Positions 24,441 to 32,740 of a stretch of 64,000 nucleotides of DNA are shown here, in pieces (the stretch's first letter is position 1; every line of letters starts with the position of its first letter). The notes below the pieces were generated by a model, which had not been told where the DNA came from, made no database searches, and saw only the letters and a list, made by a program, of their open reading frames with translations. Source of the stretch: Planctomycetota bacterium (GTDB taxonomy: Bacteria; Planctomycetota; Planctomycetia; Pirellulales; PNKZ01); assembly GCA_018242585.1 (NCBI GenBank), contig JAFEBQ010000035.1:1-64000 (forward strand), in the 5' to 3' direction. The translations under genes were made by a program, and so were the position numbers.

Positions 24441-25421
24441 TCAAGGCGCGGCCGAATACCGCTCGTACTCGGCGGCAATATTCGCCGTTTCGGCGTCGCC
24501 CAGATGGAACACATAGCGGTGTCGCAGCGTCAGCGACTTGCCCGATTCAATCTTGGTGACACGAGGCTCTTTGGTCTTGTCGAATTCATGTTCGCCAAAT
24601 GGATTGGCGGCGAACAAGCCGTAGTCGCGCACATGCCAGCGCGTGGGATGGCGGAAACTGCTCGGATGATTCAGCACCGCGATGCCGACCGACTGGCCGT
24701 CGACCTGGCCCGAGTAATCGACCCACCGCGCCGGCTTGCCCCACGCTTCGGTGTCGCGCATGCCTTCGCTGGTCAGGATGTGACCGTTGCCGCCTTTGAC
24801 GTCCATCACCGTCGGCACGCGAATGCCCATTGCCCCTTCCTTTGTGTCGCGAAACTCGACGTCGCCGGCGGTCGCGTTGATGGTGACGTCGAAGTCAATC
24901 ACGCGCGACGTGCCAATCACCTGGAACGTGAGCTTGCGAGTGTCTTCGCAATGCTTCTTGCCGTTCTGATCGATCCAGTCGTTGGTGGTCACCAGGATCG
25001 CGCGGCCGTCCTCGACACCCACCTTGTCGAAGCGGCGATGAACGATCTGGCCCAGCACTCGGCCGTTGGGAATCCCCTTCGGATAGGACGCCGGCTCGGA
25101 CCAGAAGTCCACGCCGTCGACGTCGCCGTGGGTGAACCAGAGCGAGCGCTGATGGACGTGATCGCGTTTTTCCCCTGCGACGTCCGCCATCGGATAAGCC
25201 CGGCTGATCGGCTTACCGGTCGGCCCGATGATTGGCCAAACGATCGGCTTGCTGCCGCTTTTCACGAGGTATTCGGCGAACGGCTGGCCGTCGATGGTGA
25301 TCTTGGCACCGGCGTCGTTCTGTTCAATTTTCACTGTTTCTGCCGCGGCCACGGCGCTCAACAGGCACAGTCCGACCAGGCTCAACGAGGCAGTCCAACG
25401 GAAGCGCGGCGCGCAAAGCAT
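24441..25421 (-). CDS. secreted PmoA/DUF6807-family protein
   Basis: The 326-aa exported protein (signal MLCAPRFRWTASLSLVGLCLLSAVAAAE) belongs to the family annotated as 'PmoA family' or DUF6807, common in planctomycetes. Despite the name it is not a methane monooxygenase. Family hallmarks are KPIVWPIIGPTGKPISRAYPM, RDHVHQRSLWFTHGDVDGVDFW, and GNGHILTSEGMRDTEAWGKPARWVDYSG. Length is normal. The start was set at the signal peptide ATG; an open extension to 25607 runs into the CRISPR leader region and is not signal-like. The function is unknown; carbohydrate-related roles are often guessed. Confidence 0.85.
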   Translation of the reverse strand: MLCAPRFRWTASLSLVGLCLLSAVAAAETVKIEQNDAGAKITIDGQPFAEYLVKSGSKPIVWPIIGPTGKPISRAYPMADVAGEKRDHVHQRSLWFTHGDVDGVDFWSEPASYPKGIPNGRVLGQIVHRRFDKVGVEDGRAILVTTNDWIDQNGKKHCEDTRKLTFQVIGTSRVIDFDVTINATAGDVEFRDTKEGAMGIRVPTVMDVKGGNGHILTSEGMRDTEAWGKPARWVDYSGQVDGQSVGIAVLNHPSSFRHPTRWHVRDYGLFAANPFGEHEFDKTKEPRVTKIESGKSLTLRHRYVFHLGDAETANIAAEYERYSAAP

Positions 25422-25671
25422 GGGCAATTCTCCAATCGCGTCAGAGCGAAAATCGCGGTGGGGCGGCGTAGGGGGCAGGCCAGGGGAGCGGCATCGATTA
25501 TCAGCTACGCCCAAGCCCATGTCCACGCGCGGCGGAGAAATTGTGAACCGGCTAACGCCGAGCGAAATTGAGTTGCCAGGCCAATGACACCGACGGAGGC
25601 GCTCCACGTCGATGGAACCTTTCTGTAACGGCGAGGCGATGGCCGGCGTAGTCGCCGGCCATCGCCTCGCC
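25422..25671 (+). promoter_or_regulatory. CRISPR leader region
   Basis: These 250 bases lie between the DUF6807 start codon and the first repeat. crRNA polarity (set by the tracrRNA strand) and the decayed repeat at the other end both place the leader here. It holds no convincing gene. Its last 42 bases form the perfect hairpin described separately. I cannot point to a confident promoter in it. Confidence 0.6.
25630..25671. repeat. perfect 18-bp hairpin abutting the first CRISPR repeat
   Basis: GGCGAGGCGATGGCCGGC (25630-25647), a six-base loop GTAGTC (25648-25653) and the exact reverse complement (25654-25671) form a perfect stem. Its last base directly precedes repeat 1 at 25672. No T-run follows. 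It could be a leader element, a block to transcription entering or leaving the array, or a dispersed palindrome that landed at the junction. Confidence 0.9.
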
Positions 25672-27749
25672 GTTGCGGGTTGGTCGCAGGCAGGGATCAG
25701 TTACACTCGCCGTTGGCGTTGAAGTTCGCGACCGTGGGTTGCGGGTTGGTCGCAGGCAGGGATCAGTTACACTACCGCGCGTCGCGCTTGCCGGCGAGCG
25801 CCAGTTGCGGGTTGGTCGCAGGCAGGGATCAGTTACACTGGGCGATGTCTCCGCGCGGCAACGCGATGGGTTGCGGGTTGGTCGCAGGCAGGGATCAGTT
25901 ACACTAGGTCGCAGCATCAATACTGCACCGCTGCGTTGCGGGTTGGTCGCAGGCAGGGATCAGTTACACTGCGGCGGCAATGTTTGGTGTGGGGCTTCGT
26001 GTTGCGGGTTGGTCGCAGGCAGGGATCAGTTACACTTTCCCAACGTCTGGACCAACCTCGCGGAGCGTTGCGGGTTGGTCGCAGGCAGGGATCAGTTACA
26101 CTCCACCGCGCCGGCTTGCTGCTGGAACTGGTGTTGCGGGTTGGTCGCAGGCAGGGATCAGTTACACTTTTTGGAGGCGTTCAAGTGGCGACCACAATGT
26201 TGCGGGTTGGTCGCAGGCAGGGATCAGTTACACTCGCGGCGAATAGATTGTCCTTCAAGCTCAGTTGCGGGTTGGTCGCAGGCAGGGATCAGTTACACTC
26301 TCCGCGTGCAAGAGCGCTCGTCCTCGCGTGTTGCGGGTTGGTCGCAGGCAGGGATCAGTTACACTACCTCGTTGAGTTTGTAAACGGAACCATCGGTTGC
26401 GGGTTGGTCGCAGGCAGGGATCAGTTACACTTGTCGGCGATGGCGTGTCAGTGCTTGTCTGGTTGCGGGTTGGTCGCAGGCAGGGATCAGTTACACTTCC
26501 CTGGTAGCGCAAGTCTCGTTGGGTTGGGTTGCGGGTTGGTCGCAGGCAGGGATCAGTTACACTCGTCCATGATGCAGTGGTGCCCCTCTCCCTGTTGCGG
26601 GTTGGTCGCAGGCAGGGATCAGTTACACTCGTCGGACTGATATAGAAACTAGCGTTACTGTTGCGGGTTGGTCGCAGGCAGGGATCAGTTACACTTTTTC
26701 AGCGGCGCATCCAGCAGCGCCTCGGTTGCGGGTTGGTCGCAGGCAGGGATCAGTTACACTTTCTTTCTCCTGTGAAACAAACGGAACGGGTTGCGGGTTG
26801 GTCGCAGGCAGGGATCAGTTACACTACAAGCTGTGGAAAGACATCCGACATGCCAGTTGCGGGTTGGTCGCAGGCAGGGATCAGTTACACTAATGAGCGC
26901 TACATCTCGGCCGGCGCTAAGGTTGCGGGTTGGTCGCAGGCAGGGATCAGTTACACTCGTTTGGCGTGGTCACCGATGAGCGCGACGGTTGCGGGTTGGT
27001 CGCAGGCAGGGATCAGTTACACTATCCCAATCGCGTTCTATCGGCTGCTTTTGGTTGCGGGTTGGTCGCAGGCAGGGATCAGTTACACTGACGCCAATCA
27101 CGCCCGCGCCTGTCTGGCCGTTGCGGGTTGGTCGCAGGCAGGGATCAGTTACACTGAGAAGCGATCTGTCGTCTCCCTCATTATAGTTGCGGGTTGGTCG
27201 CAGGCAGGGATCAGTTACACTGGCGGCATGATCGCATGCGCGCTGACCAAGGTTGCGGGTTGGTCGCAGGCAGGGATCAGTTACACTTCGATCGCTCGAC
27301 GGTAGCGCATCACATCGGTTGCGGGTTGGTCGCAGGCAGGGATCAGTTACACTACCCGCCGACCGCGCAGGTCCCGGGCTTGTGTTGCGGGTTGGTCGCA
27401 GGCAGGGATCAGTTACACTTGACCGACGCCTGGGCCGACGCGGCCTGGAGTTGCGGGTTGGTCGCAGGCAGGGATCAGTTACACTGTAGATTCGGCAACG
27501 TGACGTTCGCGCGTCGTTGCGGGTTGGTCGCAGGCAGGGATCAGTTACACTCACAGAGCGCGACGGCCGCAACCGCGGCGAGTTGCGGGTTGGTCGCAGG
27601 CAGGGATCAGTTACACTCCCAGCCGAAACGCCAGCTCGCCATCCTTCGTTGCGGGTTGGTCGCAGGCAGGGATCAGTTACACTGCCACGTCCGATCTGCC
27701 GTGCAGCGTGTCAGTTGCGGGTTGGTCGCAGGCAGGGATCAGTTACACT
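25672..27749 (+). CRISPR. type II-C CRISPR array, 32 repeats and 31 spacers
   Basis: Thirty-two 36-bp repeats (GTTGCGGGTTGG…CAGTTACACT) appear identical throughout. Spacers are 30 bp, except four of 29 bp after repeats 4, 9, 16 and 17. First repeat 25672-25707, last 27714-27749; no two spacers look alike. The plus strand is the crRNA strand because the plus-strand tracrRNA carries the matching anti-repeat, and because the repeat starts with GTTG as type II crRNA repeats do. The repeat's last six bases, TACACT, resemble a -10 box with TTGGTC 16 bases upstream, as in Neisseria-type arrays where repeats carry promoters. Open frames across the array (MRVGRRQGSVTL…) are artefacts. Confidence 0.98.
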
Positions 27750-27780
27750 GTTCCCCTGCCAACTGACGGGACCAATTGGG

Positions 27781-27801
27781 GTTGCGCCCAATCGGTTCAC
27801 T
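27781..27801 (+). repeat. degenerate terminal CRISPR repeat
   Basis: GTTGCGCCCAATCGGTTCACT lies 31 bases after repeat 32, exactly one spacer length away. It keeps the repeat's first six bases (GTTGCG) and a close match to its last twelve (ATCGGTTCACT versus ATCAGTTACACT), but has lost about 15 internal bases. Its last two bases are part of the cas2 stop codon (27800-27802). It marks the old, trailer end of the array. Confidence 0.65.
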
Positions 27802-28129
27802 AGAAAAGTTCGAGTTGATGCCCCGGTTGCTCGGGGCGTCGACGCATTTTTCCCCAAAATATCTGCATCCTTTCAAACTGCTTGTCGGTGATGGTGAGCA
27901 TGCGCACCTCGCCGTCCGGTGGCAGTCGGCCTTTCACGCGCCGTTGGTGAACCACGGCATTTTCCTCGCTGGGGCATGGCCGGCAATATACCGAGAACTG
28001 CATCCGCCGAAAGCCGTCCTCAAGCAAGAACTTGCGGAAGCGGGCATACTCGCGCCGCGCTTGCTTGGTGTCGACCGGCAGGTCGAACATCGTCACGACC
28101 CACATGCATCGGTATCCGCTGATTCGCAT
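27800..28129 (-). CDS. cas2: CRISPR-associated endonuclease Cas2
   Basis: Cas2 bridges two Cas1 dimers in the spacer-integration complex. The 109-aa protein begins MRISGYRCMWVVTMFDLPVDTKQARREYARFRKFLLEDGF, with the conserved Asp at residue 16. It continues QFSVYCRPCPSEENAV and GEVRMLTITDKQFERM. GGAG lies 10 bases before ATG 28129; ATG 28105 is a possible shorter start. It overlaps the 3' end of cas1 by 37 bp, and its stop codon lies in the degenerate terminal repeat. Confidence 0.95.
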   Translation of the reverse strand: MRISGYRCMWVVTMFDLPVDTKQARREYARFRKFLLEDGFRRMQFSVYCRPCPSEENAVVHQRRVKGRLPPDGEVRMLTITDKQFERMQIFWGKMRRRPEQPGHQLELF

Positions 28130-29034
28130 GGTTCGGGAATCTCCAGCCGACGGCCTTGGCCTTGGAAGCAGGCGGCAAGCGACGCGACGTAAGCGTGCAA
28201 CTGCACGAACAGCGGACCTGCTCCCGTGCCGGTGCGAACCGGCAGCGTGAGCAATTCAAGCAACGCAGCTTTGGTCGGCTGGTCGAGTTCCGTCTGCCCC
28301 GCGAACGCCAATTGGCGCACGCGATCATCGACCAGCGGCCGCAACGGTTCGACCAAGTCGTCGGCCAGACAAAACGGGTTGGCTCGATGCCGATGGTGCA
28401 AGCCCCAGGCCGGCAGCAACCCGCCCGATACCAGCGCTCGCGCCACGGCGGCCCGCACAATCGCGTAGCCGTAGTTCAACATCCCGTTCAGGCCGCGTTG
28501 ATCGGGATCGCGATGAAAGGGAAGCTGATCGGCCAGGCTGGCGGGCGCATTCACCAGCCACGCCGACCAATAGGCTCGCGCCGCCTGGGCCTCGATGTTG
28601 CTGGGATCGCCCGAGCGAACCTGCGTCATCAACTCGCGCATTCGCCGTGCTGGGGGCGAAGCGGGATCAAGGTTGTCGGCTTGGGCCTTGATCTTGGCAC
28701 GGACAATCTGCTGCCACAGCCGCTTGCGCAGCGGGAGCGGCGCCGTGATCTGTTCGCGCAGTCGCCACACGACCTGCGAGTGGTCGCCCAGGGGCAGCAA
28801 CATGCCCACGGGCAAGTGATCGCGGCCACACACGATTAGCGTGGCGTCGGCGGCGGCCAGCGAGGCCAAGGCGTGATGGGTGTAGGTCGCCTGGGGATGA
28901 TCGACGACGACCACGCCAACATCTTCACAGGGAAACTGGCCGACGGTTTGTTCGCCGCGGCGGAGCAGAAGTTGATCGAGGCGGACACAGAGGTGCGCCG
29001 GCTCGCGCGAGATTTCGATCGTGCGTTTAATCAC
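28093..29034 (-). CDS. cas1: CRISPR-associated endonuclease/integrase Cas1 (type II)
   Basis: Cas1 catalyses insertion of new spacers at the leader-repeat junction. The 313-aa protein starts with GTG (29034): MIKRTIEISREPAHLCVRLDQLLLRRG. Metal-binding residues are present: E148 in SNIEAQAARAYW, H213 in GLHHRHRANPFCLADDLVEP, and E229 in LVEP. The C-terminus is extended by a charged tail. It lies 115 bp after cas9 and overlaps cas2. No csn2 or cas4 gene is present, which fits subtype II-C. Confidence 0.95.
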   Translation of the reverse strand: MIKRTIEISREPAHLCVRLDQLLLRRGEQTVGQFPCEDVGVVVVDHPQATYTHHALASLAAADATLIVCGRDHLPVGMLLPLGDHSQVVWRLREQITAPLPLRKRLWQQIVRAKIKAQADNLDPASPPARRMRELMTQVRSGDPSNIEAQAARAYWSAWLVNAPASLADQLPFHRDPDQRGLNGMLNYGYAIVRAAVARALVSGGLLPAWGLHHRHRANPFCLADDLVEPLRPLVDDRVRQLAFAGQTELDQPTKAALLELLTLPVRTGTGAGPLFVQLHAYVASLAACFQGQGRRLEIPEPCESADTDACGS

Positions 29035-29149: not shown

Positions 29150-32100
29150 TCAATCGTTGGCCCACCGAATCCGGCCTAAAAGGTCAACGGTGACCTTTTT
29201 GCCGTTCAGCGTGCTGGCTTTGACGGCGTATTTCGTGGCGTCGGAACTCGGCCGCGCATCGGTGTGCGATATAAAATAGATTTGTCCTTGAATTGCCCCT
29301 GCCGTTCGGTAAACAAACAGCCCCTGGGTGCCACGGATGTCGGCCAAGATAGCCTCGTTGTAGCTCAGCGACATGAGGAAGCGTGCATCGCTTCGCTTGG
29401 GGTGAACCCGCCGAATGATCGATTCACCGGCTTGATGACGCCGAATCGCTTCGAGCATCGTCGTGGCAATCATTTCGCGTCGGGCTTTGCCCTTGGCGTC
29501 GGTGAATTCATAGATGGCAATGTGGTGGGTATTGCCAGGCTTGACCATAGCCGCGTCGCGGAGTGGTTGAATCGTCAGGTCTGCCTTCTTCAATCGCACT
29601 TTCTTGATCTGCACGCCTGACGGCATCAGCAAGGGTTCACGCCAAACCTCCTTGGATATGGACTTCTTGTCTCCCGGCTCGATGCCAAACTGCTTCAGAC
29701 GCGCGACGACAATGCGGCGAATCCCCTCGTCGCGAATGTCCTCGATCATGGCCGTTGTCAGCGCCTCGAGTGGCTTGCGATAGACAAATACTCCGGCCTG
29801 TTCGGTTGGGCCGTAGAGCGTTTCTTCATGCAGCGCGCCGGCCAACTTCCGCCGCACGCGGTGCGAAACATTGATCTGATTGACGGCGCTTTCCACTTGC
29901 TCGCGAAAACCCTTCCAAGGGGCGGGCAGTTCCGTTTGGCCGCGCGAACGAGCCAGTTGTTGCAATCGCGAACGATCCAACAGGGCGATCACGATGGCAT
30001 CGACGGCATGATGGCGGTGGTCGTCGCGATTCTTGCGGTCTTCCCCGCTGAGATTGAGTACCTTGTTCAGCCCCCACTGGTGACGAAGTTCGGCGGTAAG
30101 CTGCCCCTTGCTGGCCACGACGTCGACACCCAGTTTTTGCAGATAGCCGTGAACGGCCGACGTAATGTAGGCGGTGTCGTTCAACTGCCGCGCGATGAAC
30201 TCATCTTGCTGGCAGGACTTCTGACTGAAGCGAGCGCGCTTGTTGAAGGCCAATCGCGCGACGCGCTGCAATAACTCCTCATACCGATCAGGATGTTTCG
30301 CGACCAGCCATTCATGGGGCGTTTGGTTCCCTTTGGCGTCGTTTTCGCTGCGAAAGCAGACGACTTTGTTTGCCAACGAGTCATCAAGCGTGCGCGAATA
30401 GGGCAGAATATGATCGACATTCACTTCGCCCCCCAGGAGTTGCTTCTCGCTGATGACGCGGCCCGAGTAAACGCAGCAGCGATCTTGCTCTTCCCACAGC
30501 CGGTACAAATCGATCTTGGACCGCGTCGGCTTTTCACCGAATTCCGTGAGAATCTCCGCCACTCGGTCTCGTTCACGGGCGCGTTCGCGGGTATCGCGTG
30601 TGTATCGGGCGCGTTCGATGGAGTTTCCCTTCACCTCCCGGGCCAACTCGATGTGAATTGCGTCGGGCCGACCGAACTCGCGGACCACGGCGTTGACGAG
30701 CTTGCGAACTTCGTGGATCGCCTGCCGCACTAGAGGATTGGTGATGTCCGGCGGCTCGGGCAGGTACTGGCCCGCTTTGACGGGGCGTTCCCACGGCGCC
30801 AAAAAGCCAGCCAATCGCAACGCGCAGGGCGCTCCGTCCCGCGTCATCAACGGCAGCCTGCGTTCAAGGTGCGGCAACAATCGTTCGATCGTTTCGCGCC
30901 CCAGGCTGGCATACCCTTCCGGCAGCGGGGCATCGAACAACCTCGCCGCCAACTCGGCGTCGAGGCCGAATTCTTCGCCCGCGCGACGCACGAAAGTTTC
31001 TTCGTCGTCGTGGATCAGCGAGCGGACAATCGCGGTCTTGGTGGCTTCGGGTAGCTTGTGCCATTCCTTGCCGTAATACTTCTTGTTTGCCAGGATGGCG
31101 TCGGTCTTCATGCCGTCGAGCTTGTGACGATCGCCGCGTTCCAGGTTGAACGCGTCGCTTTCGAGCAAGCCGAGCAGCTTTCGCAGCTTGTCGAACTCGA
31201 CGGCATCTTTTTCGGCGAGTGCAGCCAACACCTTGCCGCGCTGGTCGTCGGTAAGTTCACAGATTTCCCCGTCGCCGCGCATCACGCGCAGGTTGTTCAC
31301 TTCCTGCAATACCCGAAAACGCTGCGCTGCGCGATCGGCGCGTGGACAGCGTTTCTGCTTGGGATCGTACTCGCACTGGCCCACGACGCTTTTCGGCGGT
31401 TTCAACTTGCGTTGAAAGAAGGTCAGGCCGAACAGTCCGACTTCTTGCACCGCTTGCCGCGGATCTTTGCCAATGCGCTCAGGTCTGCGCGGGTAAGTCT
31501 GTTGACCCCGACGGCCGTACTTCAACTGGTCAGTCAGCAATTCCGGGTGATAGGATTGTTGCTGCGCCCAAATCTGATCGAACTCGGCAACGAACATCGA
31601 GCGGCGTGTGTGCTTGCCCCGCAGACGCTCCAAGGGGTTCGCCGCATAGGCGGACGCCAAATGCTCGCCGAGCGTGCGATGACCAGCGGCCTTGATGTCT
31701 TGCTCCAACTGGCTGATCTCCGCCAAGGTTTTGGAGTCTTCCTTTTGTTTGTCGCGATCCCCCTTCTTGTTCGAGAGAAACCCGCGGCGCTGGTTCAGGT
31801 GAATCAAGATGCGCCCGATTTCAAACGGTTCCAGGCGCGAATCGAGCGCGCGGCTGCGCAACGAATAGGGATCGAGTTGATCGAGGCGAGCTTGTTCTTG
31901 CGGGTCGACTGGATAGAGACCAGCGCGAATCAATGCTTGTCGCACGCGTTGCTTACGCCGCGAACGGCGGGCGATTTGCCGGCGCATGCCCCGCGCAATG
32001 CGGCGGGCCTCATTCTTCGAGTGTTCCGCCCCCTGTTGGTCGCGATCGACCCCTTCAGGAAAAATCCTCGCGCCCGTGGCAACGACCTGTGACTGGTCTT

Positions 32101-32173
32101 CGTCGAGGTCTAACAGCGCCCAACCGATTGAATTCGAGCCAATATCCAGACCCAGTACGCGCCGCTTCGCCAT
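29150..32173 (-). CDS. cas9: CRISPR RNA-guided endonuclease Cas9, subtype II-C
   Basis: The 1007-aa Cas9 has all catalytic residues: RuvC-I D10 (LGLDIGSNSIGWAL), RuvC-II E509 (AIHIELAREVKG), RuvC-III H722 and D725 (HHAVDA), and HNH D587, H588 and N611 (VNVDHILPYSRTLDDS…RSENDAKGN). The Arg-rich bridge helix is at about 55-85. The compact length and lack of csn2 and cas4 indicate II-C. ATG 32173 is right because it gives D10 and has GGAGG 7 bases upstream; the frame stays open to 32293 through the tracrRNA gene, an artefact. It is the first gene of cas9-cas1-cas2 and is divergent from the tracrRNA. Confidence 0.97.
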   Translation of the reverse strand: MAKRRVLGLDIGSNSIGWALLDLDEDQSQVVATGARIFPEGVDRDQQGAEHSKNEARRIARGMRRQIARRSRRKQRVRQALIRAGLYPVDPQEQARLDQLDPYSLRSRALDSRLEPFEIGRILIHLNQRRGFLSNKKGDRDKQKEDSKTLAEISQLEQDIKAAGHRTLGEHLASAYAANPLERLRGKHTRRSMFVAEFDQIWAQQQSYHPELLTDQLKYGRRGQQTYPRRPERIGKDPRQAVQEVGLFGLTFFQRKLKPPKSVVGQCEYDPKQKRCPRADRAAQRFRVLQEVNNLRVMRGDGEICELTDDQRGKVLAALAEKDAVEFDKLRKLLGLLESDAFNLERGDRHKLDGMKTDAILANKKYYGKEWHKLPEATKTAIVRSLIHDDEETFVRRAGEEFGLDAELAARLFDAPLPEGYASLGRETIERLLPHLERRLPLMTRDGAPCALRLAGFLAPWERPVKAGQYLPEPPDITNPLVRQAIHEVRKLVNAVVREFGRPDAIHIELAREVKGNSIERARYTRDTRERARERDRVAEILTEFGEKPTRSKIDLYRLWEEQDRCCVYSGRVISEKQLLGGEVNVDHILPYSRTLDDSLANKVVCFRSENDAKGNQTPHEWLVAKHPDRYEELLQRVARLAFNKRARFSQKSCQQDEFIARQLNDTAYITSAVHGYLQKLGVDVVASKGQLTAELRHQWGLNKVLNLSGEDRKNRDDHRHHAVDAIVIALLDRSRLQQLARSRGQTELPAPWKGFREQVESAVNQINVSHRVRRKLAGALHEETLYGPTEQAGVFVYRKPLEALTTAMIEDIRDEGIRRIVVARLKQFGIEPGDKKSISKEVWREPLLMPSGVQIKKVRLKKADLTIQPLRDAAMVKPGNTHHIAIYEFTDAKGKARREMIATTMLEAIRRHQAGESIIRRVHPKRSDARFLMSLSYNEAILADIRGTQGLFVYRTAGAIQGQIYFISHTDARPSSDATKYAVKASTLNGKKVTVDLLGRIRWAND

Positions 32174-32196
32174 TCGCCTGCCTCCTACAAAAAAAC

Positions 32197-32224
32197 TTGA
32201 CTGCCGAGCCAGAGTTGCTAATCT
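32197..32224 (+). promoter_or_regulatory. predicted tracrRNA promoter
   Basis: TTGACT (32197-32202) is followed after 16 bases by TAATCT (32219-32224), itself preceded by TGC as in an extended -10. The predicted start near 32231 coincides with the first base of the anti-repeat. It lies inside the cas9 5' leader, so the two divergent units share about 50 bp. Confidence 0.55.
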
Positions 32225-32230
32225 AAGCGG

Positions 32231-32340
32231 CAGTGTAACTGATCCCTGCCTGTAATTGACCTTCTCGCAACAAGAAGAAAAATTCGCAGGCAACGCTCTA
32301 CGGAGCGACCAGCCGCCTTGGCAACAGGGCGGCTTTTTTT
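32231..32340 (+). ncRNA. tracrRNA
   Basis: This trans-activating RNA pairs with the crRNA repeat to load Cas9. The anti-repeat has two parts: 32232-32252 (AGTGTAACTG…GCCTG) is a perfect 21-base complement of the repeat's 3' end, and CGCAAC (32266-32271) complements its 5' GTTGCG. A 13-base internal loop lies between them. Downstream are a small hairpin CGCTC-TACG-GAGCG (32294-32307) and the terminator. Ends are predicted from the promoter and terminator, not measured. Confidence 0.93.
32312..32340 (+). terminator. intrinsic terminator of the tracrRNA
   Basis: GCCGCCTT (32312-32319), loop GGCAAC and AGGGCGGC (32326-32333) form an eight-pair stem including one G-U pair, followed by seven T. 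It fixes the strand and 3' end of the tracrRNA. Confidence 0.93.
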
Positions 32341-32740
32341 ATTGCCGCATGAGAGTTGATAGACGGCTCGCCGAGCGGCTTGCGGTCAGGCTACACCCGC
32401 GCGTCTTGGGTGGCACCGATGGCTTGGCCATCGGTGTTGCGCAGCAACAAGAAACTCGATGGGCACGCGCAACCCAATGGTAACTTGCCACCCGCGCGGG
32501 ACGGCGCCCGAGGTTTCTTGCGGCCTTCGGCCGCCCAGGTGCAAGCACCTGGGCCACCCCACGAGACCGCTTTTGATGGGGTTGCGTCCGGGACGCTGCT
32601 TTGACGACGCGAACGCAGCGCTCCGACGCGTTCCAAGCCGGTGGCTTTGCCACCGTTCTTGGCGGCAGAGCCGCCGGCTTGGGTGAGCAAGCGATGCACG
32701 CTTGCCAGAATCGCCCTCGACTCGGGATCGCGGCCCGAGG
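32341..32740. repeat. gene-free region with a cluster of short palindromes
   Basis: About 400 bp without a supportable gene. It holds several hairpins: CACCGATGG-cttgg-CCATCGGTG (about 32414), GCCCAGGTGC-aa-GCACCTGGGC (32533-32554), GGTGGC-ttt-GCCACC (about 32640) and GGCGGC-aga-GCCGCC (about 32662). Open frames across it have no ribosome-binding site or recognisable motif. It looks like an accumulation of dispersed palindromic elements. Confidence 0.6.

Follow-up and report, generated by a model that had tools for sequence, protein, structure and literature searches.

In type II-C CRISPR-Cas systems, the repeats carry their own promoters and the crRNA-5' end of an array is its old end (PMC12080349). 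According to Feussner et al. (2025), extraneous crRNA (ecrRNA) in these systems is countered by decay of the repeat, by an upstream terminator or by a hairpin that traps the guide (PMC12080349). Guide trapping was tested there only for a hairpin of Campylobacter jejuni that is also predicted to be a terminator, which the authors call a confound, so that masking and termination are indistinguishable in that case; the main text of the paper makes no mention of Planctomycetes (PMC12080349). In type II-A, as far as the work of Liao et al. (2022) is described in PMC12080349, a leader-repeat hairpin at the crRNA-5' repeat suppresses ecrRNA; there the leader and the newest spacer are found at this end, and the hairpin forms pairs with the repeat. 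In type VI, the leader-repeat hairpin is likewise an RNA structure at the first repeat acting against extraneous crRNA; it lies at the acquisition end, involves no tracrRNA and blocks both Cas13 binding and repeat processing (PMC13187072).

The window considered here, a stretch of 64,000 nucleotides from a Planctomycetota bacterium, contains a CRISPR locus with the gene order cas9-cas1-cas2-array (Table 1) and no additional gene between cas2 and the array. The locus was assigned to type II-C, which is defined by cas9, cas1 and cas2 with neither csn2 nor cas4 beside them, from Pfam hits of Cas9, Cas1 and Cas2, a tracrRNA and 36-nt repeats, the exclusion of csn2 and cas4 applying to the interval between cas2 and the array. 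All fold energies given below and here are predictions at 37 °C. The tracrRNA-repeat duplex, with a near-complete anti-repeat, has an energy of -63.7 kcal/mol, compared with about -45 for the best unrelated site in the window. Each repeat (25672-27749) ends in TACACT and has TTGGTC 16 nt upstream of it; this pair resembles a promoter, in keeping with the promoters that II-C repeats carry. At 32150-32293 in the window, the longest cas9 open reading frame and the anti-repeat of the tracrRNA, which is on the other strand, overlap, and the true start of cas9 is therefore probably an ATG further downstream (MAKRRVLGLDIG...).

Table 1. Features of the type II-C locus and its flank, in positions of the window.
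Feature	Position	Strand	Remarks
DUF6807 gene	24441..25421	-	directed away from array; promoter-like site 25525-25497 (-)
Putative guard hairpin	25627..25674	+	TAGT loop between arms 25627-25648 and 25653-25674; 19 bp before array and 3 bp in repeat 1
Would-be 22-nt guide of extraneous crRNA	25650..25671	+	19 of 22 nt inside 3' arm of stem
CRISPR array	25672..27749	+ (crRNA sense)	32 identical 36-nt repeats, GTTGCGGGTTGGTCGCAGGCAGGGATCAGTTACACT
Repeat 1	25672..25707	+	oldest, 'extra' repeat, no spacer upstream; intact here
Probable true leader	27750..27799	+	50 bp between array and cas2 stop codon; end conserved in relatives
cas2	27800..28129	-	PF09827
cas1	28093..29034	-	PF01867
cas9	29150..32293	-	1,047-codon ORF; HNH_4, RuvC_III; true start probably further in
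tracrRNA gene	32232..32340	+	anti-repeat, stem-loops, terminator ending TTTTTTT

Since the tracrRNA, with its near-complete anti-repeat and terminator, is encoded on the + strand, the crRNAs are read on this strand as well, and the hairpin consequently sits at the 5' end of the array. The age of this end was estimated from 62 non-redundant related II-C arrays with complete flanks, which were chosen by detectable Cas1 similarity and are not a random II-C sample. The crRNA-5' repeat departs from the consensus in 22 of the 62 arrays and the repeat of the opposite end in 2; the latter two (L040 and L063) seem to be due to over-extension of the array and to wrong orientation, and they were put right for the stem statistics, which were computed with the corrected orientation of three arrays. 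Among arrays with similar repeats, 28-44% of flank positions agree on the cas2 side, compared with 21-23% on the hairpin side. Moreover, spacer acquisition in the II-C system of Riemerella was seen between cas2 and the array (PMC6008519). Taken together, the repeat decay, the cas2-side flank conservation and the Riemerella acquisition site indicate that the segment next to cas2 is the probable leader and that the hairpin caps the trailer. The orientation proposed in the sequence-only reading, which regarded the hairpin as part of the leader-repeat junction, is thereby corrected: the hairpin is located at the trailer (oldest-repeat) end, opposite that junction, and the leader is at the cas2 end. 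A guiding role in Cas1-Cas2 integration, also suggested there, would fall at the wrong end, and setting of the transcription start of the array is unlikely because II-C repeats bring their own promoters (PMC12080349). A weak imperfect stem, CCAATTGGG / CCCAATCGG, with one mismatch, was found within the probable leader (27770-27796).

The hairpin is perfect, as had been noticed earlier, but its size was undercounted. The span 25630-25671, taken for 18 of 18 pairs with a six-base loop, forms 19 pairs around a 4-nt loop, and the stem runs three Watson-Crick pairs (AAC/GTT) further, giving 22 of 22 pairs over 25627-25674. Its abutment on the repeat was seen correctly, except that the stem does not end flush at 25671, these three pairs lying beyond the boundary in repeat 1. 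In RNA, the stem is predicted to reach about 7 pairs into repeat 1 when G.U pairs are counted. The predicted energy of the hairpin is -50.8 kcal/mol. In a comparison with shuffled sequences, the fold has a z-score of -8.1, none of 200 shuffles being equally good. The 50 nt before repeat 1 with its first 8 nt fold at -59.8 kcal/mol, compared with a mean of -15.1 (sd 3.8) for the sequences upstream of the other 31 repeats. Stem scores, i.e., pairs minus penalties, were also obtained for a 464-kb sample of the same genome as its own background, and only three stems besides the hairpin score at least 17 there (about 1 per 150 kb sampled). No second copy of the hairpin arm occurs at 0 or 1 mismatch in 5.57 Mb of the genome, and matches at 2-3 mismatches are scattered genomic sites. 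A dispersed palindromic (REP-like) element, previously named as the alternative together with the search for copies that might reveal it, was rejected because the arm is unique and such an element should be multi-copy. Rfam gave only matches far below the gathering scores, as expected of any long perfect hairpin.

In our opinion, the hairpin probably sequesters the guide of an ecrRNA so that Cas9 cannot be directed by it. A II-C crRNA consists of the guide followed by the repeat, and the crRNA-5' repeat is thus preceded by chromosomal sequence alone. Were transcription from outside to pass across repeat 1, the flanking DNA would become the guide of an ecrRNA, which would tie up tracrRNA and Cas9 uselessly; the hairpin would place this guide in the 3' arm of a stem of 19-22 bp and so lock it. 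Transcription of the + strand in this region is presumed, with divergent or spurious initiation as its hypothetical source, and it should be mentioned against the guide lock that the upstream DUF6807 gene is directed away from the array. We infer the working of such a lock in cells by analogy with the Campylobacter jejuni hairpin, an analogy weakened by the predicted terminator nature of the hairpin used in that II-C assay (PMC12080349).

Cofolding with the tracrRNA is compatible with this mechanism. The stem is predicted to retreat to exactly 19 bp at the repeat boundary, the three invading pairs yield, and the first 8 bases of repeat 1 all become paired to the tracrRNA, while 19 of 22 guide bases remain self-paired (mean 9 for other repeats). 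The tracrRNA binding energy of repeat 1 (-33.7) is close to that of the other repeats (mean -37.4, sd 3.1), and so tracrRNA pairing should hardly be hindered. Thus, the cofold predicts masking of the guide and not blocking of the repeat.

Comparison with related II-C loci, proposed in the sequence-only reading, revealed hairpins flush with the crRNA-5' repeat in other, unrelated arrays as well, which ties the hairpin to the array. A stem score of at least 10 at the crRNA-5' end was found in 10 of 62 arrays compared with 2.3% of intergenic sites (p 1.3e-6), and a score of at least 18 in 5 of 62 compared with 0.19% (p 1.6e-7). For this control, the genes were predicted with a simple ORF heuristic, and with intergenic positions as background in place of random ones the enrichment is smaller, yet retained. 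These data suggest that about one-sixth of related II-C arrays have a strong stem at the oldest-repeat end. The carriers include Planctomycetota, several Alphaproteobacteria, other Proteobacteria and one Bacteroidota strain; stem sequences of different arrays are unrelated to each other, and the arms at three other loci are each unique in their own genome. In nine of the ten hairpin arrays (9/62 overall), the end of the stem lies between -5 and +2 relative to the repeat, only the stems of the window and of L040 entering the repeat; the stem covers 15-20 of the 22 guide nucleotides in eight arrays, 14 and 9 in the remaining two. A U-tract on the repeat side is absent from all ten crRNA-5' stems. 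If stem and repeat decay were alternative solutions, hairpin arrays would be expected to keep their first repeat intact; the trend agrees (9/10 with a hairpin, 31/52 without), being not significant (p 0.08). The Cas1 of the locus occurs in none of the other 6 genomes of the same family, and compensatory change is therefore not visible in close relatives.

At the leader end, a stem score of at least 10 was obtained in 8 of 62 arrays and of at least 18 in 1 of 62. The former share also exceeds the stem background, so some array-flanking stems cannot be guide locks, which counts against this explanation. The leader-end (cas2-side) stems, of 11-18 bp, belong to L053, L066, L153, L149, L014, L167, L077 and L033; they are shorter and often more distant from the repeat than the crRNA-5' ones and could be bidirectional terminators or a part of the leader.

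Another, rather unlikely, explanation is that the hairpin marks a boundary of transcription, where pausing, Rho or RNase III would stop or cleave RNAs that enter the array on the + strand or that run on, along the - strand, from the cas operon and the antisense array into DUF6807. Its very stable stem (-50.8 kcal/mol) would suit this role, the DUF6807 gene follows downstream on the strand of the cas genes and has a promoter-like site to itself, and RNase III can accept perfect stems of about 20 bp as substrates. Terminators are predicted upstream of 11-12% of II-C arrays (PMC12080349), but no terminator-like site was found at 25300-25800 in the window, with T making up no more than 3 of 8 bases on the sense side and 1 of 8 on the antisense side, and a terminator would need neither contact with the repeat nor the length of a guide. 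An ordinary Rho-independent terminator blocking read-through, one of the roles imagined earlier, does not agree with the lack of a U-tract on either strand. Improbable as well is a hairpin of the II-A and Cas13 kind, occluding the repeat: the stem does invade repeat 1 and might stop its pairing with tracrRNA, but in the cofold the invading pairs give way, the binding energy stays near that of the other repeats and eight of the ten recurrent stems do not reach into the repeat.

A functionless palindrome, arisen by chance or carried as a passenger, seems still less credible. Stems of similar strength do exist elsewhere in the genome at the frequency given above, and the locus, in which conservation might show, is absent from close relatives, but flush anchoring, recurrence in unrelated arrays and the uniqueness of the arm, which is not a dispersed repeat, are difficult to reconcile with it. 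Least probable of all is a role at the DNA level, in which a cruciform would guide Cas1-Cas2 integration or mark the array end; a perfect palindrome at the array boundary invites this idea, but it stands opposite the cas2-side leader, and only 1 of 62 arrays has a long stem (score of at least 18) at the true leader end, compared with 5 of 62 at the other.

Guide sequestration by the hairpin also agrees with what has been described for II-C. Like the II-C hairpin of Feussner et al. (PMC12080349), that of the window belongs to the same subtype, precedes the repeat at the crRNA-5' end (the extra and oldest one) and has a 3' arm corresponding to the ecrRNA guide; this type is defined by a guide of 20-25 nt that pairs with sequence further upstream in a helix of 8 bp or more, and here 19 of 22 guide nucleotides are so paired. 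The statistic of that paper concerned 8-bp helices with no more than 2 unpaired bases, whereas the hairpin of the window abuts the repeat and has 22 pairs, all of them perfect. The C. jejuni Rho-independent terminator is likewise a stem-loop immediately preceding the first repeat, but its confounding U-tract has no counterpart at the present hairpin (PMC12080349). In contrast to the II-A hairpin as presented there, that of the window stands at the oldest end and pairs mainly the guide, and it differs from the type VI one in its end, in the presence of a tracrRNA and in the part of the RNA affected. A leader-repeat hairpin (II-A, VI) was rejected as a candidate, the position being away from the acquisition end and the repeat being unblocked in the cofold prediction. 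Most likely, by this analogy, the hairpin is a strong, unusually clear-cut and terminator-free case of the third, guide-trapping class, a kind already known since 2025 (PMC12080349). Stems free of a U-tract (window, L040, L081, L082, L053, L038) could separate guide masking from termination, which could not be done in the C. jejuni case (PMC12080349). It is a more speculative and, in our opinion, doubtful proposition that perfect stems of guide length which abut the oldest repeat are a separate, recurring II-C class of RNA locks, independent of termination, in which the ecrRNA guide is perhaps destroyed as an RNase III substrate, beyond being masked.

Some minor observations concern other palindromes. 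In L064, the first 12 bp of the repeat recur in inverted orientation in the flank upstream of the first repeat (GCAATCCGCAGC ... GCTGCGGATTGC), and the resulting hairpin would occlude the repeat itself in the II-A style, which is unusual for II-C. Two families of dispersed palindromes, CCAAGCCGGCGGC...GCCGGCTTGG and CATGCTCAAGTC...GACTTGAGCATG, unrelated to the CRISPR hairpin, are present in the source genome; their sites include L172 4230-4279, L172 15469-15519 and window 32633-32682, and further ones are L172 13260-13297, L177 2591-2619, L178 1214-1241 and L183 10095-10122.
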